NCBI RefSeq assembly: GCF_026410255.1
Contig: NZ_JAPMLL010000005.1
Span: 124,001 to 188,000, forward strand
Length of the DNA stretch: 64,000 nucleotides
Direction: 5' to 3'
Origin: Xanthomarina sp. F1114
GTDB taxonomy: Bacteria; Bacteroidota; Bacteroidia; Flavobacteriales; Flavobacteriaceae
A program made the translations under genes and the position numbers. This document shows positions 17,766 to 35,895 of this stretch, piece after piece. Position 1 is the first letter of the stretch, and every line of letters begins with the position of its first letter. The notes under the pieces were generated by a model. The model was not told the origin of the DNA. It searched no databases and was given only the letters and a program-made list of their open reading frames with translations.

Positions 17766-19673
17766 TTACTTCACTTCTTCGAAATCTACGTCTTCTACGT
17801 CGCTTCCTTCGTTAGAATCATTGCTTTCTGCATTTGCATCAGGTCCTGCTTCTGCTCCACCTTGCGCATCTGCTTGAGCTTTGTACATCTCTTCGCTAGC
17901 TACTTTCCAAGCTTCGTTAATTTTCTCTAAAGCTGGATCGATAACTGCTATATCTTTAGTTTCGAATGCTTTTTTCAATTCCTCTAAAGCTTCTTCAATT
18001 GGTTTCTTTTTATCATCAGATAATTTATCACCAAATTCTTTTAGCTGACTTTCAGTTTGGAAAATCATAGCATCTGCAGCATTCAATTTATCTGCTTTTT
18101 CTTTAGCTACTTTATCTGCTTCAGCATTTGCTTCGGCATCTTGTTTCATCTTTTGGATTTCTTCTTCAGTTAAACCAGAAGATGCTTCAATTCTAATATC
18201 TTGTGTTTTATTAGTAGCTTTATCTGTAGCCGTTACATGAATAATTCCATTTGCATCAATATCGAATGTTACTTCAATTTGAGGAGTTCCTCTTTTTGCT
18301 GGTGGAATACCATCTAAATGGAAGCGTCCAATAGTTTTATTGTCGGCCGCCATAGCTCTTTCTCCCTGTAATACATGGATTTCAACAGATGGTTGATTGT
18401 CTGCAGCTGTAGAGAACACTTGACTTTTCTTTGTTGGAATAGTTGTGTTAGCTTCAATAAGCTTTGTCATTACATTACCCATAGTTTCAATTCCTAAAGA
18501 TAAAGGTGTAACATCTAATAACAATACATCTTTAACATCTCCAGATAAAACACCACCTTGGATTCCTGCACCTAAAGATACAACCTCATCTGGGTTTACA
18601 CCTTTACTTGGAGCTTTTCCAAAGAATGATTCAACAGCATTTTGTACTGCTGGAATACGTGTAGAACCACCTACTAAAATTACTTGGTCAATATCATTTT
18701 TAGATAAACCAGCTGCTTTTAAAGCAGACTCACATGGAGCAATAGTACGTTTAACTAAATCGTCAATTAATTGTTCAAATTTAGCACGAGTTAACGTACG
18801 CACTAAGTGTTTTGGTCCTGATGCTGTAGCTGTAACGTATGGTAAATTGATTTCTGTTTGAGCAGAAGATGATAATTCAATCTTTGCTTTTTCAGCTGCT
18901 TCTTTTAAACGTTGTAAAGCCATTGGGTCTTTACGTAAGTCTATATCTTCTTCAGCTTTAAACTCGTCTGCTAACCAATCAATTACTTTTTGGTCTACAT
19001 CGTCACCACCTAAATGTGTATCACCTTCTGTAGAAAGCACCTCAAAAACGCCATCTCCTAATTCTAGGATAGAAACGTCATGTGTTCCTCCACCAAAATC
19101 GAATACAACTATTTTTTGGTCTGTTCCTTTTTTATCTAAACCGTAAGCCAAAGCTGCAGCTGTTGGTTCGTTAATAATTCTTCTTACTTTTAAACCTGCA
19201 ATTTCTCCAGCTTCTTTAGTTGCTTGACGCTGACTATCATTAAAATAAGCAGGTACTGTAATAACAGCTTCAGAAACTGTTGCTCCTAAGTAATCTTCAG
19301 CTGTTTTCTTCATTTTTTGAAGAATCATTGCTGATAATTCTTGTGGAGTGTATAAACGTCCGTCAATATCAACTCTTGGCGTATCGTTTTCACCTTTTAC
19401 TACTTTGTAAGGCACTCTTCCTGCTTCTGTATTAGACTCAGAAAATTTGTTACCCATAAAACGTTTAATAGAAGAAACCGTTTTTGTAGGGTTTGTTACT
19501 GCCTGACGTTTTGCAGGATCACCAACTTTAATCTCGCCTCCTTCTACAAAAGCAATAACAGATGGTGTTGTGCGTTTTCCTTCTGCGTTAGGAATTACAA
19601 CAGGCTCATTACCTTCCATAACAGAAACACATGAGTTTGTTGTTCCTAAATCGATTCCAATAATTTTACTCAT
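17766..19673 (-). CDS. dnaK: Molecular chaperone DnaK (Hsp70)
   Basis: 635 residues, normal length. The N-terminal ATPase begins with [17 protein letters not shown] (phosphate 1 loop) and contains [13 protein letters not shown] and [13 protein letters not shown]. The substrate-binding domain follows from about 385, with the allosteric linker [12 protein letters not shown]. The acidic C-terminal tail ends EDVDFEEVK, typical for DnaK and its co-chaperone contacts. No dnaJ or grpE is adjacent, which is usual in flavobacteria. The upstream 270 bases show no clear CIRCE-type inverted repeat. Confidence 0.98.
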
Positions 19674-19943
19674 AATCTTTATTTGTTTTTATTTATCCGG
19701 ATCAATATTCAATAATATAGATTTACGGAAACTTTATGTTCATTTTAATTTCGAGTTGTTTATTTCAATCATTATGCCAACAATTTTACACTGACAAGCT
19801 GTCATAAATTTAAAAGCCAATTCTCAAGACCCAAGACTATACTGCTAAAATTTAAAAACTGTCAGAGTCCAAAAATTATTGGAAAAACATTTAAAAACAT
19901 AAAAATGATAGTATATTAACCCTATATTTATAATTAATACCCT

Positions 19944-21023
19944 ATGAAAAAATATTTACTCGGTTTTCTCCTTTTTTCATTTTGCCTAATTAATGGTTAT
20001 TCTCAACAGCAGAAAACAAACAGTACTAAACCATCGGACACTTTAAAACAAAAGAAAGTCGATTTTTCTCTGATGCCTTTTCTAAGCTATAACAGAAATT
20101 TAGAACTCATGATTGGAGCTATTCCAATGCTTATGTATAAGTTAGACTCTAAAGATGCTATTTCACCCAAATCTTTATCGGGTTTATCTGCTGTTTATAC
20201 AACTAATGGTTCCTATTTTATTTCTCTTTTCAATAAATTCTTTTATAAAGAAGACTCATGGCGGGGTAAGTTCTTTGTGCTTACCGGCGACAATAATTCA
20301 CAGTTTTACGTGAACGACCTTGAAGTCCCAGGCTTTTATGACTATGCCACCAAAATAACAGTTGTAAGTGTGGGTGTACAAAGAAAAATTATAGATCATT
20401 TATATGGAGGATTAACTTATACTTATGCACATTATAAAACCGATTATGAAGATGAAATACAACCTGAAAATATCACCCAAACAAATGCCATTGAGTTAAA
20501 TGTATTATACGATACAAGAGATGCTTTCTATTACCCCATGAATGGAACAAAAACCTCTTTACGTTATATCGCTTTCCCAACATGGTTTGGAAACGATGCA
20601 AATGCAAATAAAATATTATCTGAATACAACAAATATATACCTATGAAAAATGGAAAAGATGTTATTGCTGCAAGGTTTTCGGGAAAATTTGGCTTAGGAG
20701 AGATCGCTTTCCAACAGCAGGTAACAATTGGATCTAAGGATATTCGAGGTTATTCTGAAGGAAAGTATCGTGGAGATGGCTTAATGGCTTTACAAGGAGA
20801 ATACCGTTATAATTTTAATAATAAAATGGGGCTTGTTGGATTTGCAGGAGTTGCAACAATCTATGGATCAGACACTGAAGATTTTAATTGGAAAGCCTAC
20901 CCTGGAGCTGGAGTTGGATATCGCTACCGAGCTTTTAAAGCAGTTAAATTCAATATTGGATTAGATGCAGCGGTAGGAAAAGACGATTGGGGTATCTACT
21001 TTAGAATTGGAGAAGCTTTTTAA
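19944..21023 (+). CDS. BamA/TamA-type outer membrane beta-barrel protein
   Basis: 359 residues with a signal peptide (about 1-20, ending YSQ). No POTRA domains are present; the mature protein begins almost directly with barrel strands. The hallmark surface-antigen segments are present: YDTRDAFYYPMNGTKTSLRY (about 193-212) and IRGYSEGKYRGD (about 267-278), the latter being the Omp85 L6-type motif. The C-terminus ends in Phe, as outer membrane barrels do. It lacks the length of BamA itself, so it is a short Omp85-like protein of unknown cargo. A TATATTTA box at 19923-19930 may be its promoter. Confidence 0.75.
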   Translation: MKKYLLGFLLFSFCLINGYSQQQKTNSTKPSDTLKQKKVDFSLMPFLSYNRNLELMIGAIPMLMYKLDSKDAISPKSLSGLSAVYTTNGSYFISLFNKFFYKEDSWRGKFFVLTGDNNSQFYVNDLEVPGFYDYATKITVVSVGVQRKIIDHLYGGLTYTYAHYKTDYEDEIQPENITQTNAIELNVLYDTRDAFYYPMNGTKTSLRYIAFPTWFGNDANANKILSEYNKYIPMKNGKDVIAARFSGKFGLGEIAFQQQVTIGSKDIRGYSEGKYRGDGLMALQGEYRYNFNNKMGLVGFAGVATIYGSDTEDFNWKAYPGAGVGYRYRAFKAVKFNIGLDAAVGKDDWGIYFRIGEAF

Positions 21024-21113
21024 AATAGAAACCTAAAAAAACACTTGCAAACTAAGCAATACTATTTCTTAATAATAGGGACCTTATCTCTTAATTTCAA
21101 CAGAAAGTTCTCG

Positions 21114-21121
21114 TATATTTG
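21114..21121 (+). promoter_or_regulatory. Putative -7 promoter element of sdaA
   Basis: TATATTTG, 23 bases upstream of the ATG at 21145. Confidence 0.4.
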
Positions 21122-21144
21122 TAATCATTTTAAAACGATTAAGT

Positions 21145-22572
21145 ATGTTGGAATGTATTTCGGTTTTCGATATGTTAAAAATAGGAGTTGGGCCATCCAG
21201 CTCTCACACATTAGGTCCATGGCGTGCTGCAGAACGTTGGATTGAAGAGCTTAAAGCTGCAAATAAATTTGACAAAGTAGAGCAAATATCTGTAGACCTA
21301 TACGGTTCTCTATCTCTTACAGGAAAAGGTCATGCTACAGACTATGCTGTTATGCTCGGTTTGAGTGGTGGCGACCCAGAAACTATACAAATAGATTCTA
21401 TAGAAGGAATTATAAGTTCTATTAAAGAAAACAAAATTTTACAGTTTAATAATGAAAAGCAAGTTTCTTTTAATCCAGAAACCAATATAATATTTAACCG
21501 AAAATTTCTGCCTTATCATGCTAACGGTTTAAGTTTTACCGCAACTATAGATGGTAAAAAATTAAAATCGACTTTTTACTCAATCGGAGGAGGTTTTGTG
21601 GTAAAAGAAGAACGAAAAAATTCGAAAAAAAATAAAGAGATATTACTAAACACCTTTCCCTATCCTATTGTAAAAGGAACTGAACTTTTAGCCTATTGTT
21701 CTGAGTTAAACTTACCAATTTCTAGCGTAGTTCTTGAAAATGAAAAGTCATTGAGAAATGAAGATAATATAGATTTTGAATTGCAACGAGTGTGGACTAC
21801 TATGTTGGAATGCATGTATACTGGCTGTCATACCGAAGGCAACCTTCCGGGCGGGCTTAATGTGAGACGTCGTGCTTTTGATATGCATAAAAACTTAATA
21901 GGAGACTCCCCATATTCTAATCCTCAAGAATGGTTGGAAGCTATTAGAAAAACAGAAGTTAAATTTAGACAAATCCTTAAATGGGTTAGTTGCTTTGCTT
22001 TAAGTGTTAACGAGGTAAATGCAGCTTTAGGCCGTGTAGTTACAGCTCCTACAAATGGGAGTGCTGGAGTAATTCCTTCTGTACTTATGTATTATATGGT
22101 TATAGAAAATCATAAAGCCAATTTTGAAGAAATAAAACGTTTTTTATTAGTAGCTGGAGAAATTGGAAGTATCTTTAAGAAAAATGCTACTATTTCTGCT
22201 GCAATGGGAGGTTGTCAGGCCGAAATTGGTGTATCTTCTGCCATGGCTGCTGGTGCCCTATGCGAATTATTAGGTGGTTCTCCAGATCAAGTATTGGTTG
22301 CTGCAGAAATTGCTATGGAACATCACTTGGGATTAACCTGTGATCCTATTGGTGGACTGGTGCAAATTCCTTGTATTGAAAGAAACTCTATGGGTGCAAT
22401 AAAAGCTATTAATGCAGCAGAGTTAGCTTTAGATACAGATCCTGCCAATGTAAAAGTACCATTTGACAAAGTGGTTTCTACCATGTGGGAAACAGCTAAA
22501 GATATGAGCTCTAAATATAAAGAAACAAGTGAAGGTGGATTAGCAGTAGGAGTAAATATTCCAGATTGTTAA
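21145..22572 (+). CDS. sdaA: L-serine ammonia-lyase (L-serine dehydratase), iron-sulfur type
   Basis: A 475-residue single-chain enzyme that deaminates L-serine to pyruvate and ammonia. The beta-domain signature [17 protein letters not shown] opens the protein (about 14-30). The alpha domain carries [12 protein letters not shown] (about 300), GGCQAEIG (about 353) and the cysteines of [17 protein letters not shown] (about 395-412) that hold the 4Fe-4S cluster. The gene stands alone between its own promoter and a downstream terminator. Confidence 0.95.
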
Positions 22573-22601
22573 ACCTGTTAAACTCTATAAAAGAGAAAAC
22601 T

Positions 22602-22655
22602 AAAGTAGCCTGTAGTAAATAATGCTGTTTTATACCGGGATTAGCTACTTTTTTA
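22602..22655 (+). terminator. Terminator after sdaA
   Basis: Arms AAAGTAGC (22602-22609) and GCTACTTT (22644-22651), followed by further Ts. The loop is long (34 bases), so the stem may be extended by weaker pairs. Confidence 0.55.
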
Positions 22656-22725
22656 GCGTGCCTCTCTTCGAAACTATCAATTATTTACTATTTTTACATC
22701 CATTTAAAATATCAAACCATATAGC

Positions 22726-23544
22726 ATGTCTGTAGCAAAAAAAGAGTACAAAAGAATTACCGTAAAAACCTTAGTTGATATGAAAGCTAATGGTGAAAAA
22801 ATATCCATGCTTACAGCATACGATTATACCATGGCCAAGATTGTAGATGGCTCTGGAGTAGATGTAATCCTGGTTGGAGACTCTGCAAGTAATGTAATGG
22901 CTGGACATGAAACCACCTTGCCTATTACTTTAGATCAAATGATATATCACGCCTCTTCAGTTGTAAGAGCTGTAGAACGCGCATTAGTAGTAGTAGATTT
23001 ACCTTTTGGAAGTTACCAAAGCGACCCTAAAGAAGCTTTGCGTTCCGCTATTAGAATTATGAAAGAATCTGGTGGTCATGCTGTAAAATTAGAAGGTGGA
23101 AAAGAAGTAAAAGAATCTATAAAACGTATTCTCAATGCAGGAATTCCTGTAATGGGACATTTAGGATTAACACCTCAATCCATCTATAAATTCGGAACTT
23201 ATACTGTAAGAGCAAAAGAAGAAGAAGAAGCTATCCGTTTAAAACAAGATGCGCTTATGCTTGAAAAAGCTGGTTGTTTTGCTATTGTATTAGAAAAAAT
23301 ACCAGCTAAACTAGCTCAAGAAGTAGCAGAAAGTGTTTCCATTCCTGTAATAGGAATTGGTGCTGGACACGGTGTGGACGGACAAGTATTGGTTTTACAT
23401 GATATGATTGGAATGACTCATGAGTTTCATCCACGTTTTTTAAGACGTTATATGAATTTATATGAAGACATGACTAATGCTATCTCCCAATATGTGGATG
23501 ATGTGAAGTCTAAGGACTTTCCTAATGATGAAGAGCAGTATTAG
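22726..23544 (+). CDS. panB: 3-methyl-2-oxobutanoate hydroxymethyltransferase (PanB)
   Basis: 272 residues. It makes ketopantoate from 2-oxoisovalerate and methylene-tetrahydrofolate, the first committed step to pantothenate and CoA. Typical segments are [30 protein letters not shown] (metal-binding Asp), VKLEGG (about 117) and [13 protein letters not shown]. The start [16 protein letters not shown] is the usual Bacteroidota N-terminus. The RluA-type gene follows 26 bases later. coaBC and coaE, later steps of the pathway, lie elsewhere in the window in separate operons. Confidence 0.96.
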
Positions 23545-23570
23545 TAGCTAGAAAAAATCTCTAATAATTC

Positions 23571-24275
23571 GTGAAATCTGTGTCTAAAGTACTGTCAACA
23601 AAAGAAAACCTTCAAGTTCTATACGAAGACAATCACATTATTATAGTTAATAAACGTGCTGGAGATATTGTTCAAGGCGATAAAACTGGAGATAAACCTT
23701 TAAGCGATGTTGTTAAAGAGTTTATTAAAGACAAATACAACAAACCTGGGAACGTCTATCTTGGAGTGGTACACAGATTAGACAGGCCAACCTCCGGCAT
23801 AGTTATGTTTGCTAAAACTAGTAAAGCATTGCCAAGACTCAATAAAATGTTTGTTAATAAAGAAACAAGCAAAACGTATTGGGCACTAGTAAAACATGAA
23901 CCTCCCAAAAAACAGGACACCTTAATCCATTGGTTACGAAAGAATCCGAAAAACAACAAATCTACTGCATTCCCTAATGAAGTTCCTGATGGTAAAAAAG
24001 CCATTCTACATTACCAGGTTATTAAAGAATTAGATAATTATTTTCTGTTAGAAGTTAATTTAGAAACAGGTAGACATCATCAAATACGGGTACAATTATC
24101 AAATATCGGGTGCTCGATTAAAGGAGATTTAAAATATGGGTTTAATAGAAGTAATAAAGATGCGAGTATTAGTTTACATGCCAGAAACCTGCAGTTTATT
24201 CATCCTGTTTCAAAAGAAAATATAGATGTAACTGCTCCCCTACCTAAAGATCCTGTTTGGGATGCTTGCCTATAG
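23571..24275 (+). CDS. RluA family pseudouridine synthase
   Basis: 234 residues. The catalytic Asp71 lies in HRLDRPTSGIVMFAKT, and the RluA C-terminal uracil-binding segments TGRHHQIRVQLS and KGDLKYG are present. There is no N-terminal S4 domain, placing it with the short RluA/RluC-like enzymes; the RNA target cannot be told. It starts at GTG: an in-frame stop at 23565-23567 excludes any longer form and no early ATG exists. It is likely co-transcribed with panB. Confidence 0.88.
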   Translation: MKSVSKVLSTKENLQVLYEDNHIIIVNKRAGDIVQGDKTGDKPLSDVVKEFIKDKYNKPGNVYLGVVHRLDRPTSGIVMFAKTSKALPRLNKMFVNKETSKTYWALVKHEPPKKQDTLIHWLRKNPKNNKSTAFPNEVPDGKKAILHYQVIKELDNYFLLEVNLETGRHHQIRVQLSNIGCSIKGDLKYGFNRSNKDASISLHARNLQFIHPVSKENIDVTAPLPKDPVWDACL

Positions 24276-24361
24276 ATAATACGATATAAAAATTTCACCA
24301 AGAGGTTGTCTCTAACGGGACAAAACCACGGAATAATACCTTTAATTAAAAAACTATATTT

Positions 24362-25189
24362 TTAATTCTTGGAAGCAAAAGGATATTCAATAGTTAGTTT
24401 TACTCCTTCATTGGGTTTTGAATATAAATCGAATTTAGCATCAATTAGCTCTGCTCTACTTTTCATATTAATAAGCCCTGAACCCTTTTCAGTTAATTCA
24501 CTATCAAAGCCTTTCCCATCATCTGTCGCAACAATAAGCAGTTGATTATCTGAAAAATCCAATTCAATTTTCAAGTTTTTAGCCTCGGAATATTTAACAG
24601 AATTTGAAAAGAACTCTTGCAGAATTCGGAATAAAATAATTTCATGTTTTTTATTTGTTAACGACCGTTTAGTTCCTTTAATCTGCAATTCGGCAGAAGC
24701 AAATTTCATTCGTTTTAATCTATCTAATTCGTTAGTAATAGATTTTTCAAAACCAATATTTAAAATAACATCGTTGTTTAAAGATTTGGAAAGAGATCGT
24801 ACTTCCTTTAAACTTTCTTTTATGGTTCCGGTTGTAAGGTCTAAAGTCTCTTTCATATCTTCAGGAACCTTTGTTGCTAACATATTTAATTGCATACTGG
24901 CAAAAGCTAATAATTGTCCTACGTTATCATGTAATTCCCACCCAATATGTTTTAATGTTTGCTCTTGAATTTCGGTTTGCGTTAAGGCAATTTCCTCGTC
25001 GAAAGCTTGTTGTTGCTTTATTTTGTCTAATAATAGTTTATTCTTTCGTTTCTGAAAAACAACAAAGAAAATAACAACCAAGGAGGTAACTATTAAGAGA
25101 ACCCCAATCATATAAATTAATAAGTAGCGTTCAGCAGAAGTAGAAACTGTTGGTTGAGTTTGTAAAAAAAGACTAATTAATTGAATCAT
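24362..25189 (-). CDS. Orphan sensor histidine kinase (HisKA_3/NarX-like)
   Basis: 275 residues. There is a short N-terminus, one membrane helix (about 24-45), then a coiled linker. The dimerisation/phosphoacceptor domain carries His87 in ELHDNVGQLLA, the HisKA_3 pattern. An HATPase_c domain follows with Asn196 (N box) and DDGKGF at 223-228. It has almost no extracytoplasmic part, so it probably relies on a partner for sensing. Its start overlaps by 17 bases the end of a seven-helix membrane protein gene. No response regulator gene is adjacent; the expected partner would be a LuxR/NarL-type regulator elsewhere. Confidence 0.88.
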   Translation of the reverse strand: MIQLISLFLQTQPTVSTSAERYLLIYMIGVLLIVTSLVVIFFVVFQKRKNKLLLDKIKQQQAFDEEIALTQTEIQEQTLKHIGWELHDNVGQLLAFASMQLNMLATKVPEDMKETLDLTTGTIKESLKEVRSLSKSLNNDVILNIGFEKSITNELDRLKRMKFASAELQIKGTKRSLTNKKHEIILFRILQEFFSNSVKYSEAKNLKIELDFSDNQLLIVATDDGKGFDSELTEKGSGLINMKSRAELIDAKFDLYSKPNEGVKLTIEYPFASKN

Positions 25190-25886
25190 TTTTCGGTTTT
25201 AGTACTATTAGAACAACGGTAAAAGAGAGGTACATAAATATCTTGGCATACAGCATAATCATCCATTTTAATTCAGCCTGAACTGGGTCTGTATCTGCAT
25301 TCCCACAAACAAAGTGTACTAATGGCATAGTGACGAATAACCAAATTAAGAGTATGGCGCTTATATAAAAGTTAATATCTTTATTAAACTCTAAAACATT
25401 ATTGCTTTGCAACATTTCATATAAATAAAAGATTGCGGAAAGCATAATTAGAGACATATGTCCAATTCTAATTATTTTAAATGTACCATTGAAAAACTGT
25501 GAAAAATTGAAAGCAATACTAGCCAAGGAAATTATTAGAAATAAAAATACGGCATATTTAAGAATTGACCTTAAAAATTCTATTTTTAGTACTTTCCTGT
25601 AATACCAGACTATAAAAACAGCGGACCCAATATACCACGTTAAATTAACCCACCAAAAGTTAAATTTGATTTGAGTGTTCTCTATGAGATGAAACAAACC
25701 AAAATAATTTAAAACCCATCCATAAAACCCAAACAGCTCTGCAACAAAGACATAAAATAAAAAGTATATAAAATATTTTACTACTGTATGCTTATAATCC
25801 TTAAGCACTAAAAGTCCAGTAATAGCAGCTATGAATACAACTGCTAGATTAATATTTACGTAATTGCTAAGTAAAAAATCCTTCAC
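25173..25886 (-). CDS. Seven-helix membrane protein paired with histidine kinase
   Basis: 237 residues with about seven hydrophobic helices (near 12-30, 38-60, 77-97, 107-128, 135-155, 170-190, 210-230) and no large loops. It is a diverged paralogue of the protein at 26530-27249: both have FWW..(T)W/FW.IGS..F....Y in helix 3. It starts at GTG. It overlaps the downstream kinase gene by 17 bases, so the pair is translationally coupled. The proposal that it supplies the kinase's sensory input is an inference; it matches no family I can name. Confidence 0.75.
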   Translation of the reverse strand: MKDFLLSNYVNINLAVVFIAAITGLLVLKDYKHTVVKYFIYFLFYVFVAELFGFYGWVLNYFGLFHLIENTQIKFNFWWVNLTWYIGSAVFIVWYYRKVLKIEFLRSILKYAVFLFLIISLASIAFNFSQFFNGTFKIIRIGHMSLIMLSAIFYLYEMLQSNNVLEFNKDINFYISAILLIWLFVTMPLVHFVCGNADTDPVQAELKWMIMLYAKIFMYLSFTVVLIVLKPKNDSIN

Positions 25887-25937
25887 TTTTAAAACATTTA
25901 ATAGGTAAAATAATAATTTTCAATTTAATACAAATAA

Positions 25938-26236
25938 TTAAAAGAATGAATAAAACATAATACTTCCAATGTACCAAAATATTGTATAAACCCAATAATT
26001 TTTCCTAAAAACTGTTTTGTCAATTATCAGTTTTAATTCACTTAAAGACTCATATTTAGATAAAAGTAATGGATAATATGCAATTAATTCAATCAAAACA
26101 ACATACCCAAGAAACAAAATCCAATATTTAGTGGAAGTGTTTTTATATTTTTTATATAAAATAAATCCCGTAATGGCTGAAACAAAATAAGGCCCTTAGT
26201 AATAAAACTATAATAGGTAATTATAAAATCATTCAT
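25938..26236 (-). pseudogene. Broken third copy of the seven-helix membrane protein
   Basis: Reading from ATG at 26236 gives MNDFIITYYSFITKGLILF. One base appears lost around 26183-26190. In the shifted frame the protein continues VSAITGFILYKKYKN to FWYIGSIMFYSFF and then stops at 25938. This matches the first 100 or so residues of the intact protein at 26530-27249 (for example AVIGIMFYKKYRN and FWNIGSVLF). The remaining four helices are gone. It sits between a truncated copy of the small anchored protein and the intact paralogue at 25173, so it marks decay of one duplicated unit. Confidence 0.8.
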
Positions 26237-26250
26237 TCCTTCAATAAATT

Positions 26251-26514
26251 TTATTGAGGATACTTAGCTGATGGAGGTATTCCGGGATCTCCTTCATTTA
26301 ACCCACCTCCTCCAGAAATATCTCCTCCAGGTGGCAACATATTAATTAAGGTACTGTTTCCTTGAGATATGTTCTCTACGCCTGTTGGCACTAAAAGCAT
26401 GGTGGTGTAACCAACTTCTCTGTCAGTTGGATAAGCGCCTAAATACACTCTTACGCCATCCATTATGTAACCTAACTCTTTAGATTCGTTTTCAGCATAA
26501 TTTTTAAATTTCAT
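26251..26514 (-). pseudogene. N-terminally truncated copy of the small anchored protein
   Basis: An 87-residue open frame starting MKFKNYAENES. From residue 5 it is nearly identical to the last half of the 166-residue protein at 27253-27753 (two substitutions across about 60 residues, then a divergent Gly/Pro-rich tail ending YPQ). The membrane anchor and first 80 or so residues are missing, so it would be cytosolic if made. It lies directly after the intact seven-helix gene (16 bases) and before the broken one, repeating the order of the intact pair. It could be expressed; functional status is uncertain. Confidence 0.65.
26325..26503. repeat. Direct repeat, copy B (within truncated gene)
   Basis: About 179 bases that match 27327-27505 with about eight differences. 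The first 135 or so bases differ at a single position. The spacing between copies is 1002 bases. Confidence 0.9.
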
Positions 26515-26529
26515 AGTCTTATTTTATAA

Positions 26530-27249
26530 TTAGATTTCTTGTTCTGGATCACACAAAATTAATGCTAAAGAAAATGTTGAATACATAAATAAGTTTGAAA
26601 ATAAATACACATTACTTCTTAAATTTAAATAACCAATATCGTAAGCAGAAAAATATGCTTCATAAAATAATAGTGTGGTTATAATTAACCACCATAAAAA
26701 CATAGTTATGCTAACTATTGAATTTAAAGATTTATAAAATACCAATATTTTATCACTATTGAGGATTTCAATAAAATACAATGAAATGCAATTTAGAATG
26801 ACTAAAGCCCCAAAAATATTGACAAACTTTAATAGTGAATTAAAGAATGCATCTACATTTTGGCTAATATAAATAATAGAACTTGCTAAAAATATCAAAC
26901 AAATATATTTTACAATTTTCTTAAAGGTTCTATTTTTTAGTATCACGTAATAATAATAAGACATAAATAAAACACTTCCAATATTCCAAAAGATTGTGAA
27001 CCACCAAAAATTTCTACTAAAATAGGTACCTTTCAAGTAGTTTCCTAAACCATGAAGCTCTTCAATTTCTATAACATAAGATGGATAACTCCCTATAAAA
27101 TCAACTAAAGCAACATAAACTAAATAATATATAAAAATTTTGCTGTTATAATTCCTATATTTTTTATAAAACATAATACCTATAACAGCACACACAACTA
27201 AAATTAAATCATTTAATTGTGAGCCATAATTATATATAAAATCTAACAT
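26530..27249 (-). CDS. Seven-helix membrane protein, copy next to anchored protein
   Basis: 239 residues, about seven hydrophobic helices, rich in aromatic residues (FWWFTIFWNIGS, MSYYYYVIL). Short loops and a cytosolic C-terminus ending DPEQEI. It is paralogous to 25173-25886 and to the broken copy at 25938-26236. It starts 3 bases after the stop of the anchored protein at 27253, so those two are co-translated. No catalytic motif is visible; a sensory or channel-like role is only a guess. Confidence 0.72.
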   Translation of the reverse strand: MLDFIYNYGSQLNDLILVVCAVIGIMFYKKYRNYNSKIFIYYLVYVALVDFIGSYPSYVIEIEELHGLGNYLKGTYFSRNFWWFTIFWNIGSVLFMSYYYYVILKNRTFKKIVKYICLIFLASSIIYISQNVDAFFNSLLKFVNIFGALVILNCISLYFIEILNSDKILVFYKSLNSIVSITMFLWWLIITTLLFYEAYFSAYDIGYLNLRSNVYLFSNLFMYSTFSLALILCDPEQEI

Positions 27250-27252
27250 GAT

Positions 27253-27753
27253 TTATTGTGGGTAATTAGCTGGTGGTGGCATTCCGGGCTGTCCTCCATT
27301 TAAACCTCCTCCAGGAATATCACCACCTCCAGGTGGCAACATATTAATTAAGGTACTGTTTCCTTGAGATATGTTCTCTACGCCTGTTGGCACTAAAAAC
27401 ATGGTGGTGTAACCAACTTCTCTGTCAGTTGGATAAGCGCCTAAATACACTCTTACGCCATCCATAGTATAACCTAGTTCTTTAGATTCGTTTTCGGCAT
27501 AGTTTAAATAATCTCTCATATCCTTTAAAGACCACCAAGCAGATCGGTTGTCTGGACGCCTAACAATAGAGTCGCTAATTAAAGCATGTCTTTTATCAAA
27601 AGCTGCATCTAAGACTCTGGCTTCTTCTGAAGTTATCAGTCCTTTTGGCGCTACAATTGTTACTTGTGTTTTAGTTTCACAGTTTGAAAAAAAATAATAA
27701 GTGACCAAAGCACCAATAATAACTCCTAAAATTAATAGACTTAATTTTTTCAT
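27253..27753 (-). CDS. Small membrane-anchored protein with Gly/Pro-rich tail
   Basis: 166 residues from ATG at 27753 (an in-frame TTG two codons earlier is rejected). One N-terminal anchor helix (about 3-22) is followed by SNCETKTQ; the Cys is not in a good lipobox because Asn precedes it. The exported part carries VRVYLGAYPTDREVGYTTMF, then SQGNSTLINMLPPGG and a Gly/Pro-rich tail ending NYPQ. I do not recognise the domain. It heads a co-directional row: this gene, a seven-helix protein, decayed copies of both, another seven-helix protein and a histidine kinase. This suggests an extracytoplasmic input component (inference). Confidence 0.7.
   Translation of the reverse strand: MKKLSLLILGVIIGALVTYYFFSNCETKTQVTIVAPKGLITSEEARVLDAAFDKRHALISDSIVRRPDNRSAWWSLKDMRDYLNYAENESKELGYTMDGVRVYLGAYPTDREVGYTTMFLVPTGVENISQGNSTLINMLPPGGGDIPGGGLNGGQPGMPPPANYPQ
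27327..27505. repeat. Direct repeat, copy A (within intact anchored-protein gene)
   Basis: Partner of 26325-26503. The near-identity includes synonymous positions, so the copy is recent or has been homogenised. Confidence 0.9.
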
Positions 27754-27792
27754 GATCAAAATGATTGATTAATAGATTCTAAATGTATTAAA

Positions 27793-27845
27793 AAGATTGA
27801 AAATTCTTTCAATAATTGTTAATAAAATCATATTCTTTCAATCTT
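27793..27845 (-). terminator. Possible terminator downstream of yifB
   Basis: Perfect arms AAGATTGAAA (27793-27802) and TTTCAATCTT (27836-27845) with a 33-base loop, followed on the minus strand by TTTTAATA. AT-rich, so only moderate. Confidence 0.4.
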
Positions 27846-27869
27846 ATAAAATTCCAGTTTTTTCAGAAA

Positions 27870-29408
27870 CTAACCCAACCAACCTTCTCTATCAAGACTT
27901 CTGTACTGTATAGCTTCGCTAATATGAGCTCCTTGAATGTCTTTACTTGCTTCCAAGTCGGCAATAGTTCTAGATACTTTTAAAATACGGTCGTAAGCTC
28001 TTGCCGAAAGGTTTAAGCGTTCCATGGCTGTTTTTAGCAACTGCATAGAAGCCTCATCTAGCAAACAGAATTTTCTAATCTGCTTTGTGTTCATTTGCGC
28101 ATTATAATGTACTTTATCTGAATCCTCAAAACGTTTAGTCTGTATGATTCTTGCTGCAGTAACACGTTTTCTAATTTCAATGGACGATTCGCTTTTTCTA
28201 GTATCAGAAAGTTTTTCAAATGGTACCGGAGTCACTTCTATATGAATATCTATTCTATCTAATAAAGGTCCTGAAACCTTGCTTAAATAGCGTTGCATTT
28301 CGGCTGGAGATGAAGTTATTGGAGAGTCTGGATCGTTAAAATAACCGCTCGGACTTGGATTCATACTGGCAACCAACATAAACGATGACGGATAAGTAAC
28401 TGTAAATTTTGCTCTGGAAATGGTAACTTCTCTATCTTCTAATGGCTGGCGCATCACTTCCAGAACATCGCGTTTAAATTCTGGTAATTCGTCTAAAAAT
28501 AAAACTCCATTGTGAGATAATGAAATTTCACCAGGTTGTGGGTAGCTCCCTCCTCCTACTAAGGCAACGTTTGATATGGTATGATGTGGACTTCTAAAGG
28601 GACGTTGTGCCATAAGCCCCGTGCTATCTTTAACACGTCCGGCAACCGAATGTATTTTTGTAGTTTCTAAAGCCTCATGCAAAGTCATAGGTGGTAAAAT
28701 ACTTGGCAAACGTTTGGCCAACATTGTTTTTCCTGCACCTGGTGGCCCAATTAAAATAATATTATGCCCACCGGCAGCTGCTATTTCCATACAGCGCTTT
28801 ATAGATTCTTGTCCCTTAACATCGGAAAAATCAAACTCCGGAAAATTCAAGCTCTTATTAAACTCTTCTTCTACATTAATAATGGTTTGTTCTAACGGCT
28901 CTCCTTTATCAAAATACTCAATCACTTGTTGAATATTCTCAACGCCATATACCTTCAATCCAGAAACAATACCAGCTTCTTTTGCATTTTGAATTGGTAG
29001 AATAAACCCATTAAACCCTTCCTCCTTGGCTTTTATAGCAATGGGCAAAGCTCCTTTAATAGGTTGCAAAGAACCATCTAAAGACAATTCTCCCATAATA
29101 AGAAAGTCTTCCAGGTTTTCAGCTTGAATTTGATTGGTTGCTGCCAGAATTCCCATCGCTAAAGTAAGGTCGTATGCAGAACCTTCTTTGCGTAAATCGG
29201 CCGGAGACATATTTATAATAATCTTCTTAACGGGAATTCTAAAACCGTTGTTCTGCAAAGCTGCTGCAATTCTATAGTTACTTTCCTTAATAGCGTTGTC
29301 TGGTAAGCCCACCAAGTGATACCCTACACCAGTGTCTACGTTAACCTCCACAACTATTGTAGAAGCTTCAACTCCAAAAACTGCGGATCCAAAAACTTTT
29401 TTAAGCAT
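27870..29408 (-). CDS. YifB/ComM family Mg-chelatase-like AAA ATPase
   Basis: 512 residues, full length for the family. The N-terminal Lon-protease-like ChlI domain (about 1-170) has the [15 protein letters not shown] segment. The AAA core has Walker [18 protein letters not shown] (about 220) and Walker [10 protein letters not shown]. The C-terminal Mg_chelatase_C region is [19 protein letters not shown]. ComM-type helicases promote branch migration during uptake of foreign DNA in Vibrio; in flavobacteria the role is assumed, not shown. It is divergent from the second nitronate monooxygenase gene. Confidence 0.92.
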
Positions 29409-29529
29409 AATTGAATGGTTTCTTTAAATGTAAGCCAAATAAAACAATTATTGAAATATGAAAGTACTGATTAAAACAAACTCCGTTATTATCTGGAAAT
29501 AAATCTTTTCAAACAAAAGTTAAGATTGG

Positions 29530-29537
29530 TATCTTTG
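29530..29537 (+). promoter_or_regulatory. Putative -7 promoter element of nitronate monooxygenase copy 2
   Basis: TATCTTTG, 18 bases upstream of the ATG at 29556. No good -33 TTG is present. Confidence 0.45.
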
Positions 29538-29555
29538 CATTTAAAGCTAATAAAA

Positions 29556-30533
29556 ATGAACAATCCTTCTTTTATAAAAGAGTTAAGTATACCTGCAATT
29601 GCTGCTCCCATGTTTTTAATTTCTGGACCACAATTGGTTATTGAGTGTTGTAAAAATGGAATTGTAGGCACTTTTCCTGCTTTAAACCAAAGAACGAGTG
29701 AAGGTTTTGAAGCTTGGTTGATAGAAATTAAAACAGCTCTCTCTAATTTTGAAAAAGAAACAGGAAAAAAAGCAGCTCCTTTTGGTGTAAATTTGATTGT
29801 TCATAATACAAACCCTCGTTTACAAGCGGATTTAGAATTATGTATTAAGCACAAAGTTCCTATTATTATTACGTCTTTGGGTGCTGTTTCAGAATTGGTT
29901 GACGCTATACACAGTTATGGCGGCTTGGTGTTTCATGATATTATTAAAAAACGCCACGCTGAAAAAGCTACTGAAGCAGGTGTTGACGGGTTAATACTTG
30001 TATCGGCAGGTGCTGGTGGGCATGCCGGAACCATAAACCCCATGCCATTAGTTGCCGAAATTAAAAGTTTTTTCAAGAAAACTATCATTCTTGCTGGAAC
30101 AATAAGTACAGGCCGTGATATTGCTTCTGCTTTGCAAATGGGAGCTGATTTGGCCTATATGGGAACTCGGTTTATTAATACTATAGAAAGCAAAGCGCCC
30201 AAAGAATACAGAGAAATGATTATTGAAACTGGAGCAAGCGATATTGTTTATACTGCTGCCATTTCTGGCGTTGCTGCCAACTTTTTAGGTCCTAGTATAA
30301 AAGCTATGGGAATTACCGAAGAGATGCTTAAAAGAAAAAAGAAAATCGATTTTGGTGAAGAATTAACAGCGCATAAAGACGATGCTAAAGCTTGGTCTAC
30401 TATTTGGTCTGCCGGACAAGGTGTCACCAATATTCATGATGTACCAAAAGTTTCTGAATTAGTATCTGAGCTCAAAAAAGATTTTATATCTGCTATTGAA
30501 GAACAGGCAAAATACTTGGAAGCTTATAAGTAA
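29556..30533 (+). CDS. Nitronate monooxygenase family protein, copy 2
   Basis: 325 residues from ATG at 29556 (the longer TTG start at 29526 overlaps the -7 element). FMN TIM barrel: IPAIAAPMFLISG, VNLIVHNTNPR, IITSLGAVSEL, VSAGAGGHAGT with the active-site His, ILAGTISTGRD and ADLAYMGTRF. It shares the fold and motif order with the protein at 16561-17508 but is clearly diverged, so the two are old paralogues. Substrate unknown. It is monocistronic. Confidence 0.83.
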   Translation: MNNPSFIKELSIPAIAAPMFLISGPQLVIECCKNGIVGTFPALNQRTSEGFEAWLIEIKTALSNFEKETGKKAAPFGVNLIVHNTNPRLQADLELCIKHKVPIIITSLGAVSELVDAIHSYGGLVFHDIIKKRHAEKATEAGVDGLILVSAGAGGHAGTINPMPLVAEIKSFFKKTIILAGTISTGRDIASALQMGADLAYMGTRFINTIESKAPKEYREMIIETGASDIVYTAAISGVAANFLGPSIKAMGITEEMLKRKKKIDFGEELTAHKDDAKAWSTIWSAGQGVTNIHDVPKVSELVSELKKDFISAIEEQAKYLEAYK

Positions 30534-30854
30534 TCTATTAACTTTATTTTATCTACTTAACACAGATTATACAAGGTTAATCTAAAAATTTTTTTATGAC
30601 ATTTAAACAAATAAAACCTTAGTCACCTTACATAAATAGAATTCAGAATTTTTCGTCAAAAAAATTGCAGGTTACACCATATCCACAACCCCTTTAAACA
30701 CTTATAAATAGGGAGCTACAAGAGGTTCACTCGTAGATACTCCGTATCAAAGCCATACAAACCCTATATCAAAGCCGTATAAACCTTATGGTTAGGGTGT
30801 CAAAAAAAGTATTGCAACTAGTAAAGCTATACAACCTTGCACCAGTACTCAAAA
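30534..30854. other. Intergenic region with a short tandem repeat
   Basis: 321 bases between convergent genes. No open frame of interest. It holds a two-copy 22-base tandem repeat at 30745-30788 and no convincing GC-rich terminator. Confidence 0.6.
30745..30788. repeat. Two-copy 22-base tandem repeat
   Basis: Unit 1 (30745-30766) begins TATCAAAGCCATACAAACCC. Unit 2 (30767-30788) begins TATCAAAGCCGTATAAACCT. The units differ at a few positions. Confidence 0.7.
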
Positions 30855-31814
30855 TCAAACTTTCTTGACAAACTCCAAAGCCCGTTTTTCATTATAATAA
30901 AAACCTCCAGATTGAAAAAAACCTACATGGCCTCCATGATTTGGCATTTCCAAAAAAAGATTTGGATTGTTTTTAGCTTCTTTTACAGGATAACATTCAG
31001 CTGATAAAAACGAATCGTTTAGAGCATTAATAAGCAAGGTTGGAGTTTTGATGTTGGTTAGAAATTGCAAGCTACTACTCTGCTTATAATAATCTTGAGC
31101 ATTCTTAAAACCATGAGCTTTAGAGGTGTACAAGTTATCAAAATCATAAAGAGTTTTAATAGAACTAATGTCGGCCTCGTTTATTTCATTTCTGTGCTGT
31201 TGTGCCTTTAAATACAACTTTGTTTTTAAGTTCTTTTTAAATGTATCATGAAAAACTCTATTTTTAACAGTGTGCAATTCTTTAGCAGACCCAGCTAAAT
31301 AACAAGGCACAGAAACGGCGATACCTGCTTTAATCTGTTCTGGAATATTTTGAGTTTCCCCTAAATATTTTAAAGTAACATTGCCTCCTAAGCTAAAGCC
31401 CTTAATATAAATTTGAGAGTATTTAGTGGAATTTAAAACATGTTGAATAACCTGTTCTAAATCTTCGGTTTCTCCGGAATGATAGGAACGGAAGGCCATA
31501 TTATCTTCCCCACTACATCCACGAAAATTAATTGAAACGGCATCAATATGGTTTTGATTAAATATTTTAGCGGTTCCAATCATGTAATGTCTTTGTGCAT
31601 TGCCTTCCAAACCATGAAGAATAATAATGAGTTTATCTGTTTTTGTATCTGAAAAACTCCAATCTAAATCCATAAAGTCGCCATCAGATAAGGTGATGCG
31701 TTCTCTTTTTTGAACCAAACCATTAACTTTTCTGAATAAACCAGAATACACAGTTGATATAAATCCGTTTCTGAAAAAAATCGGAGCTTTATAAGTAGAT
31801 TCTATAACAGGCAT
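30855..31814 (-). CDS. YheT-family alpha/beta hydrolase
   Basis: 319 residues. HGLEGN near 67-72, FRGCSGE near 98, nucleophile Ser141 in KGFSLGGN, Asp in NALNDSFLS near 267, and His in NHGGHVGFF near 295. This is the UPF0017/YheT layout of cytosolic esterases (the EMB8/ABHD1-3 group). The physiological substrate is unknown. It starts 3 bases after the adenine deaminase stop, so the two are co-transcribed, although no metabolic link is obvious. Confidence 0.87.
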   Translation of the reverse strand: MPVIESTYKAPIFFRNGFISTVYSGLFRKVNGLVQKRERITLSDGDFMDLDWSFSDTKTDKLIIILHGLEGNAQRHYMIGTAKIFNQNHIDAVSINFRGCSGEDNMAFRSYHSGETEDLEQVIQHVLNSTKYSQIYIKGFSLGGNVTLKYLGETQNIPEQIKAGIAVSVPCYLAGSAKELHTVKNRVFHDTFKKNLKTKLYLKAQQHRNEINEADISSIKTLYDFDNLYTSKAHGFKNAQDYYKQSSSLQFLTNIKTPTLLINALNDSFLSAECYPVKEAKNNPNLFLEMPNHGGHVGFFQSGGFYYNEKRALEFVKKV

Positions 31815-33601: not shown

Positions 33602-34312
33602 CTATGCATTTTGGTTAACTACCAATCTAAACCCTTCTCCGTGAATATTTAAAATTTCAACATTTTCGTCTAATTTTAAGTACTTTCTCAATTTAGCAAT
33701 ATACACGTCCATACTTCTTGATGTAAAGTAATTATCGTCTCTCCAAATTTTAGTTAAGGCCAATTCTCTTGGCATTAAATCGTTTTCATGTAAGGCTAAC
33801 AAACGCAGCAATTCATTTTCTTTAGGAGATAATTTAACTTGTTCTCCTCCATCAAAAACTAAGAAACGCAATTTCGAGTTTAGGTCAAACTTTCCTATTT
33901 TAAACTCAAACTGCTTGCTGTCTGCTACTGTTTCTGTGGCTTTACGCTGCATAATGGCTTTTATTTTCATTAATAAAACCTCACTATCAAACGGTTTGTT
34001 TAAATAATCGTCTGCACCTACTTTATACCCTTTTAAAACGTCTTCTTTCATGGCTTTAGCTGTCAGGAATACAATAGGTACATCTGTATTTTTCTCTCTA
34101 ATTTCTTTAGCTAAAGTAAATCCATCTTTATAAGGCATCATGACGTCTAAGATACATAAATCGAAGTCGTCTTTCTTGAACTTTTCAAAGCCTTCCATTC
34201 CATTTTTGGCATGGGTTACTTCATAATCGTTCATGGTTAAATAATCTTTAAGGATGGTTCCAAAATTTGGATCATCTTCAACTAATAGTATTTTCTTTTG
34301 TTGTTCATTCAT
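33602..34312 (-). CDS. OmpR-family response regulator
   Basis: 236 residues. The receiver domain (1-120) has acidic residues VEDD (11-14), phospho-acceptor Asp56 in ILDVMMP, Thr84 and Lys106 in LNKPF. The winged-helix DNA-binding domain (about 135-233) has SPKENELLRLL and SRSMDVYIAKLRKYL. The stop of its kinase gene is 5 bases upstream, giving a normal kinase-regulator operon. Resembles the RprY type of Bacteroidota; target genes unknown. Confidence 0.92.
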   Translation of the reverse strand: MNEQQKKILLVEDDPNFGTILKDYLTMNDYEVTHAKNGMEGFEKFKKDDFDLCILDVMMPYKDGFTLAKEIREKNTDVPIVFLTAKAMKEDVLKGYKVGADDYLNKPFDSEVLLMKIKAIMQRKATETVADSKQFEFKIGKFDLNSKLRFLVFDGGEQVKLSPKENELLRLLALHENDLMPRELALTKIWRDDNYFTSRSMDVYIAKLRKYLKLDENVEILNIHGEGFRLVVNQNA

Positions 34313-34317
34313 AGCTT

Positions 34318-35895
34318 TTACGATATTAATGGAAGTTTAATAATAAACAAACTTCCCTTGTCCTTTTCACTTTCAACTGATATATGACCTTGATGGTCTT
34401 CTACAATTCGTTTAACATAGGCTAAACCTAATCCATGACCTTTTACATCATGCCTGTCCCCCGTGTGTTCTCTATAAAATTTTTCGAAAACACGTTTTTG
34501 CGCAGCTTTCCCCATTCCACTGCCTTGATCTTTTATTTTAATAATTATATTAGTTCCTACATTTTCAGTAGAAACATGAATTATTGGTGCTCTGGATTCT
34601 GGGGTATACTTTATAGCGTTATCCAGAATATTTACAATAACATTTGTAAAATGTGTTTCGTTTGCTAATACCATAGAATTTGTTGCAGCCAGATCTACAT
34701 GAATTTCACCGTTTTTATCTTCTACAATTAACTCTACATGTGTTAGCGCATCTTCTATTAAGTCGTGCATTATAACACGTTCCTTACTAATATTTAGTTC
34801 GTTTTTTTCAAGTTTAGATATTCTTAATACATTTTCTACTTGCGCGTGCATGCGCTTATTTTCATCTTTTATCATTCCCAGATAACGCAGCACCTTTTCT
34901 TTATCATCAATAATTTTAGGATTTCTAATAGCATCTAAAGCTAAATTTATTGTAGCAATAGGAGTTTTAAACTCGTGCGTCATGTTATTAATAAAATCCG
35001 TTTTTATTTCCGAAATTTTACGTTGCTTTATTAATTGCATCAAGGCACTTGCATAAGCAATAATGATAATAGAGGTGAAAATTATTGAAAGCAAAGTCAT
35101 TCTAATAATAGACGACTGTACAAACGTATTTCTCTTTGGAAAATTAACTAGTAATCTATAATTACTTATATCGTTTTTATTTTGAAAAATTGGAACACTA
35201 AAAGTAGATTCCGTTAATAATTCAAAATCGTCCGATTGAATTTTAGTTGCTAAATCGTTACTATAAATAGCAAATTGAAAATCTATATCGATATTATCTT
35301 CTAATAATTTCAATTTTAAAAGTCTATTTATTTCAGCTCTGCTTACACGTTTATGAATAGGAACTCGGTAAGATAAATCCTCGTATGCTGTGTCGTAAAA
35401 TATTTCGACACCTTTTGAGAGTTTACCAAATTCGAACATCATGGCATCTAAATTCAAATTAGAATTAGATTCTAATGCATTTCCCTTTAAAATTTTCGTT
35501 TCTCTATCGCTCAGTACCTTTTTTATATTAATACTATCTAAGCCTATGTCAAAGATCGATGAAGACAATTTATAATTCTCTTCTAAAATACTGTTTCTAT
35601 AAATTAATTTTTCGTTGGAGCCTCTTCCTTCTTCTTTTAAATATAATTGTCGAAATGCCATGGTATCAGGTTTAACACCTTGGTCTAAAAGATCTTGGAA
35701 TTTTAACACATAATCTTTAAACTCTGTATCTTCTATTTTTTTAGAAGTAAAACTCAGAGCCTTTTTTACATTAAACGTAAATTGGTCTTCCTCGTTTTTA
35801 AGAGAGTTGTTAATATAATAAGCTTGAACGAAAATAATACCTACTAACGATAAACTCATTAATAGTATCAGTATAACGAATAACTTTTTGCTCAT
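34318..35895 (-). CDS. Sensor histidine kinase (partner of 33602-34312)
   Basis: 525 residues. Helix 1 at about 5-27 and helix 2 at about 262-287 enclose a periplasmic sensor domain of about 235 residues with no recognised fold. HisKA carries His307 in THEFKTPIATI. HATPase_c has Asn426 (NILDNAIKY), DQGSG at 456-460 and GHGLGLAYV near 487. This is the RprX-like layout. A TAATTTTG box ends 4 bases before the ATG, so the transcript may be leaderless. The response regulator gene follows directly. Confidence 0.92.
   Translation of the reverse strand: MSKKLFVILILLMSLSLVGIIFVQAYYINNSLKNEEDQFTFNVKKALSFTSKKIEDTEFKDYVLKFQDLLDQGVKPDTMAFRQLYLKEEGRGSNEKLIYRNSILEENYKLSSSIFDIGLDSINIKKVLSDRETKILKGNALESNSNLNLDAMMFEFGKLSKGVEIFYDTAYEDLSYRVPIHKRVSRAEINRLLKLKLLEDNIDIDFQFAIYSNDLATKIQSDDFELLTESTFSVPIFQNKNDISNYRLLVNFPKRNTFVQSSIIRMTLLSIIFTSIIIIAYASALMQLIKQRKISEIKTDFINNMTHEFKTPIATINLALDAIRNPKIIDDKEKVLRYLGMIKDENKRMHAQVENVLRISKLEKNELNISKERVIMHDLIEDALTHVELIVEDKNGEIHVDLAATNSMVLANETHFTNVIVNILDNAIKYTPESRAPIIHVSTENVGTNIIIKIKDQGSGMGKAAQKRVFEKFYREHTGDRHDVKGHGLGLAYVKRIVEDHQGHISVESEKDKGSLFIIKLPLIS

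Follow-up and report, generated by a model that had tools for sequence, protein, structure and literature searches.

Organization of the locus

The 64,000-nucleotide stretch of the Xanthomarina sp. F1114 genome analysed here (contig NZ_JAPMLL010000005.1, positions 124,001 to 188,000; referred to below as the window) carries a gene cluster, A-T-K, for a small anchored protein (A), seven-helix membrane proteins (T) and a histidine kinase (K). All its elements lie on the minus strand, in the transcriptional order A, T1, A', T', T2, K. The A gene (27253-27759) specifies a protein of 168 aa if read from the first TTG, or of about 165 aa from ATG, and ends 3 nt short of T1 (26530-27249; 239 aa). A' (26251-26514) is the remnant of a second A gene, reduced to the C-terminal half within an 87-aa open frame. 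T' (25911-26222) is what is left of a broken seven-transmembrane (7TM) gene, recognized by a profile match: only the N-terminal part is present (about profile positions 5-103 of 233), with four internal stops (one TGA, one TAG, two TAA) and a 59-aa open piece at 25938-26117. T2 (25173-25886; 237 aa, GTG start), 29% identical to T1 (E 1.6e-25), adjoins K (24362-25189; 275 aa), and the two reading frames overlap by 17 nt. The initial annotation had described six co-directional units in a row, with the second seven-helix gene overlapping the kinase gene and the anchored-protein gene almost touching T1; the open reading frames (ORFs) bear out each of these points. It had also described the extra copies of A and T as truncated and frameshifted. 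Both are indeed truncated, but A' has kept an open frame, and the disruption of T' takes the form of the stops listed above. The gene 3' of K, presumably for a pseudouridine synthase to judge from its sequence, is convergent, so that no regulator is adjacent in the window. Scans of the region for promoters (21 found, 22.0 expected) and terminators (2 found, 1.5 expected) stayed at chance level. The arrangement itself exceeds chance, the T-before-K order recurring in all 80 related loci described below.

Both Pfam domains of K score above cut-off (HisKA_3, E 4.5e-11; HATPase_c, E 1.6e-9). The protein contains a single hydrophobic stretch near the N-terminus, preceded by about 20 residues as read from the sequence. 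Residues H87, N196, G225 and G227 are invariant across 19 aligned sequences, that of the window included, and we take them to represent the phosphoacceptor histidine and the N and G boxes. The best NCBIfam match is UhpB (E 2.6e-23), at 82.5 bits against a cut-off of 408.

An AlphaFold2 model of T2, built from 114 aligned sequences, shows seven long helices (predicted local distance difference test score, pLDDT, 93.2; predicted template-modelling score 0.89). The chain stops about 10 residues past helix 7, leaving no signalling module in the same protein, and the basic loop after helix 1 predicts an N-out/C-in topology. Chains of G-protein-coupled receptors (GPCRs) top the structure lists (Z 12.9, root-mean-square deviation 4.2, 218 residues aligned), with values in the range of common helical bundles, and the best Foldseek E value is 0.13; the model thus appears GPCR-like in look, at scores that prove no kinship. 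The T profile found no match at E 1 among sequences of solved structures, and Pfam searches with T2, with 32 diverse T proteins and with 114 T proteins assigned T to no family. The 7TMR-DISM family (PF07695) stayed below cut-off in T2 (E 0.29; 11.5 bits against 29); it appeared in 1 of the 32 diverse T proteins (0.0016) and, for the 114, was absent from the families detected at E 0.1. Weak matches of single members include the transporter families TctB, ThrE, AzlD and TauE; the major facilitator superfamily was not among the Pfam matches, and the structure was compared with Foldseek's list only. A microbial rhodopsin was considered and rejected. T2 has a lysine in helix 7 (YAKIFMY) at what we take to be the retinal-binding position of those proteins, but the consensus of the 114 T sequences has asparagine (FANIFMY).

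The A protein combines an N-terminal hydrophobic helix, a helix-strand domain and a Gly/Pro-rich tail ending in PPPANYPQ. Its AlphaFold2 model (pLDDT 87.8) places helices at residues 2-22, 41-50, 52-63 and 75-91 and strands at 94-105 and 115-125, followed by the tail. Pfam searches gave no family, and the fold had no usable match in Foldseek's list (best E 0.4) or by VIA (best Z 3.4), the comparison being limited to that list. The best match of the A profile among solved sequences, a syntaxin (0.083), was taken as chance.

Conservation and co-evolution of A, T and K

At E 1e-3, T matches occurred in 69 of 149 family genomes and A matches in 79. K, called at 160 bits or more with a clear gap down to 100 bits below, was present at 101 loci in 81 genomes, and T places fell within 3.5 kb of K at 94 of the 101; several of the other seven are at contig ends. 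A second set was obtained by searching the GTDB collection with the kinase alignment: at least 588 stretches matched, 569 were confirmed and the best 80 loci were kept (the named set). Their titles give Flavobacteriaceae genera or unplaced relatives, one being labelled Algicola; having been picked by similarity of the kinase to that of the window, they say little about distant relatives. T directly precedes K in 80/80 of these loci, and A is present in 78, the two loci without it having K within 850 nt of a contig end. The T and K frames overlap in 74/81 cases, a count biased towards overlap because each frame was taken from the earliest start available.

The T profile was also run against 375 genomes of the class and 335 of the phylum, many of them common to both sets, and matched 60 and 50 genomes, respectively, three of the latter outside the class; the A profile matched 15 of the 375. 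Reading of 28 class-level T loci (6 from the same family, 22 from others, each ending 1.5 kb after T) revealed a short HisKA_3 kinase next to T in every one (26 by script, 2 by reading). A NarL-type regulator follows in 20 by profile, some loci being cut by their 1.5-kb end. In 25 of the 28, a same-strand ORF of 122-346 aa ends just before T; 14 of these 25 products have a hydrophobic N-terminus (at least 1.6 on the scale used), and several, including some that the A profile does not reach, have Pro- or Cys-rich motifs at the end. Outside the family, at class-level loci that include L313, L320, L327 and L330, proteins encoded before T terminate in Cys/Pro motifs, HGKVCPPYC for instance, and the A profile does not match every one of them. 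At one locus (G010; L241, 3553-6292), the A-T pair precedes a kinase of the unrelated PF06580 family and a LytTR regulator, which argues for a transferable sensor unit. Taken together, A-T-K is well supported as a conserved unit, and the partnership between seven-helix protein and kinase that the initial annotation had proposed withstood the comparison with relatives, in which the two genes are, as a rule, not found independently of each other.

Further evidence came from the correlation of protein distances after removal of the contribution of two neighbouring genes, panB and rluA. It covered 51 of the 80 named loci, those in which A, T and K each occur once and both neighbours were identified. 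The partial correlation was 0.607 for T-K (p 0.001), 0.049 for A-T and 0.044 for K-A. A serves here as an inner control because it lies just as close to T. These values are a strong indication that T and K co-evolve beyond their neighbours while A does not and, together with the T-K linkage, they support the earlier suggestion of a kinase that borrows its sensor from a separate seven-helix protein.

Within this framework, duplication of T genes is frequent. More than one T is present in 22 of the 80 named loci, K being nearly always single. The tree built from 119 T proteins intermingles genes in single, upstream and last position (36 changes), although the bootstrap is not fully settled. Where the window has T', relatives L145, L146, L152, L167 and L171 carry an intact T gene, placed between T1 and the last T, and in all five, remnants of A in varied states of decay lie between the T genes (L167 also has an 89-aa A). 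In the window, T1 is flanked by a 254-nt direct repeat derived from A (26250-26503 and 27252-27505; 89% identity between copies). A block at 26495-27347 differs from Xanthomarina sp. F2636L at 3 of 853 nt (99.6% identity), and the T1 proteins of the two are identical over the 235 columns kept. Flanking 400-nt blocks with a match, within 18401-31748, are 73-91% identical; the sole other high block (97%, 18001-18400) lies in a 635-aa ORF (17766-19673). Both ends of the near-identical block fall in the A and A' repeat copies, a pattern that we read as a recent between-species replacement of T1.

A hydrophobic N-terminal segment is present in 67 of the 84 A proteins of the named set and intermediate in one. 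Nine arrays (L075, L080, L102, L157, L158, L164, L172, L184 and L219) have more than one A gene. At least one A in each is about 117-120 aa long and lacks any export signal, and most of the nine also encode an anchored A.

Response regulators R and RR2

In divergent relatives the gene order is A-T-K-R, R being a NarL-type (REC-GerE) regulator. Among the 149 genomes, R adjoins K at 52 of the 101 K loci and is missing at 49; 53 R loci exist in all (at least 196 bits), the one not adjoining K being in G100. R-less loci score at least 250 bits to the window K and R-bearing loci at most 249.5, except G148 (264.6). No R was found in the 80 named loci at E 1e-40. Thus, the initial annotation's remark that no response regulator is adjacent stands for the window, and for 48 further R-less loci, but not for the system.

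The genome of the window's strain has 21 receiver-domain matches, but only three of its regulators reach high R-profile scores (148, 110 and 86 bits; the next is at 42). The best of these is a regulator beside a 668-aa HisKA_3 kinase, and the idea of an R hidden elsewhere in the genome was dropped. The other two, both lone NarL-type regulators, were considered as partners of K. In one, L136 (own-genome contig C22, 74911-75540), the phosphorylated Asp is replaced by Glu and one residue of the acidic pair is Ser; it looks like a phosphate-independent receiver. It was rejected for this degenerate site and for its wide presence (46/48 R-less, 26/33 R-bearing-only and 35/68 K-less genomes). The other, RR2 (G000 contig C3, 6359-6985), has intact catalytic residues. 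With the line drawn at 190 bits (next matches at most 176; G021, at 173, counted as lacking RR2), RR2 occurs in 71 of the 149 genomes: 48/48 R-less, 19/33 R-bearing-only and 4/68 K-less. Its surroundings were read in all 71, coverage in G036 being of the 1.5 kb upstream of RR2. RR2 stands alone in 48/48 R-less genomes, whereas in all 19 R-bearing-only genomes that have it, it directly follows a kinase of its own, about 670 aa long; of the four K-less cases, two are paired and two alone (G140 and G083, assemblies 75% and 88% complete).

The strain's own genome contains three HisKA_3 kinases only. Each of the two besides K lies near a receiver gene. Against the RR2 kinase they reach 63 and 54 bits, compared with 322-689 for nine RR2-adjacent kinases elsewhere; these low scores imply that the RR2 kinase is absent from this genome. 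The lack of R and the lack of the RR2 kinase beside RR2 therefore go together. Most likely, K now drives RR2 in the R-less lineage, a rewiring of regulators that is plausible but unproved. Class-specific residues found in both the K and the RR2 comparisons are suggestive only, since any split clade shows some.

Outside these genes, the window contains a response regulator at 33602-34312 directly after a 525-aa same-strand ORF (region 33602-35895), possibly an ordinary two-component pair. Its receiver domain corresponds to contig C52:157962-158291 of the same genome.

Proposed mechanism and relation to known systems

A-T-K probably constitutes a two-component system in which the sensor is encoded apart from the kinase and K drives a NarL-type regulator, RR2 in the lineage of the window. 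T would be a seven-helix receptor sitting in the membrane with the single helix of K, and the binding of a signal by T would alter K autophosphorylation. A, which in most members is exported and either anchored or lipidated, might act on the outer face to present or gate the signal, with the conserved tail at its C-terminus as the candidate contact. K would then hand the phosphate to the regulator, encoded by the next gene, R, in divergent relatives. In the window lineage, where R is gone, the acceptor would be RR2, whose own 670-aa kinase no longer adjoins it.

Several observations weigh against this scheme. Because they form a single pair of close or overlapping genes, T and K could be kept together by linkage and nothing more. 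At three of the 49 K loci without R, no T match lies within 400 nt: in G034, K and A-T are on different contigs; G122 has K without A or T; and in G084 the T next to K is lost, another T being present upstream. Conversely, no kinase adjoins A-T in G086, G106 and G108. No T-K fusion was seen among the class and phylum T-profile matches listed, in which open frames reach at most 290 aa. A role of A outside the cell fits badly with the lack of an export signal in 16 of the 84 A proteins of the named set and in at least 12 of the 65 A matches of the first set, and 11 of the 25 class-level ORFs before T fall below the hydrophobicity line. As for RR2, the joint lack of R and of the RR2 kinase may be a single event inherited by a clade, so that 48 genomes do not amount to 48 tests, and the RR2 kinase was sought genome-wide in the strain's own genome and around RR2 in the other 47 R-less genomes. 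The K-RR2 mirror-tree signal is weak (partial correlation 0.29, p 0.003, 37 genomes), lower than that of K with its neighbour rluA (0.44), and RR2 is also correlated with rluA (0.20) and panB (0.16); K-sucB, a control from RR2's own locus, gave 0.12 (p 0.16). The A-T pairs of G086, G106 and G108 (L242, L243 and L244), it may be added, are partly duplicated.

The weak mirror-tree signal, the absence of R at 49 K loci and the presence of RR2 alone in the K-less genomes G140 and G083 would also suit a K left orphan by the loss of R, with RR2 unrelated to it. We regard this as a minority possibility: K retains its kinase motifs and is 61-83% identical to the window K in 31 other genomes, RR2 accompanies K in every R-less genome, and both K-less assemblies are incomplete. 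It is unlikely that T is instead a transporter or enzyme-like membrane protein that K monitors or controls, as in transport-coupled sensing. The lack of a known family, the scattered matches to transporter families and the A-T pairs without kinase would agree with such a role, but T is short (about 235 aa, seven helices), its nearest solved structures in the list are receptors, if only at scores of common helical bundles, and it is T that has been duplicated while K stays single. Less likely still is that K alone senses within the membrane and that T and A are co-regulated neighbours with another task, such as pathway targets: several residues of the K N-terminal helix region are strongly conserved in the R-less class (among them R21 0.91, Y22 0.85, M27 0.89) and G122 keeps K by itself, but T and K are linked and co-evolve while the equally close A does not, and the T-K order is kept in class-level loci.

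The reading of A-T-K as a system with a separate sensor can be extended to a wider picture, in which, across Bacteroidota, a GPCR-like receptor family would serve as a separate subunit for kinases without a sensor, these kinases belonging to at least two unrelated families; receptor genes would be duplicated and exchanged between species via flanking accessory-gene repeats; and the kinase would have been rewired, in 48 Flavobacteriaceae genomes, from its own regulator to another that the loss of a different kinase had orphaned. As a whole, this picture is offered tentatively and may well fail in one part or another. Should it hold, a class of receptors in a major bacterial phylum would have gone unnoticed because its sensor and kinase lie in separate genes and no family name exists for the sensor. 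The missing R and the missing RR2 kinase together would provide a natural case of two-component rewiring. Repeated duplication of T and its exchange between species would be in keeping with diversifying pressure on a receptor, and this would point to a variable signal. A literature search covering titles and the beginnings of abstracts, outside subscription papers and preprints, found no description of the system; PMC5399024 deals with an OmpR/BaeS pair.

With its neighbours, K resembles the HisKA_3/NarL-type systems, among them DesK-DesR, NarX-NarL and UhpB-UhpA: the kinase core and HATPase_c domain are the same, and the REC-GerE regulator is next door in divergent relatives. Unlike in those systems, the putative sensor is a separate 7TM protein accompanied by a further, mostly exported protein, and the window has no adjacent regulator. 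In UhpC-UhpB, likewise, a second membrane protein senses for a HisKA_3 kinase, and UhpB is the best NCBIfam match of K. UhpC is transporter-like, however, and UhpB has many helices, whereas K has a single hydrophobic stretch and T, at about 235 aa, has seven helices. The predicted seven-helix bundle is shared with microbial rhodopsins and with GPCRs, whose chains top the structure lists; T differs from both in the lack of a profile match to sequences of solved structures and of a conserved helix 7 lysine in its consensus. In 7TMR-DISM receptors and in BtsS, the 7TM region and the kinase are parts of one protein. In the 7TMR-DISM receptors and the LytS-type receptor kinase BtsS (PMC10653868), as proposed for T, a seven-helix receptor is coupled to a histidine kinase; T departs from the 7TMR-DISM type in its sub-threshold PF07695 score and in being made as a protein separate from the kinase.

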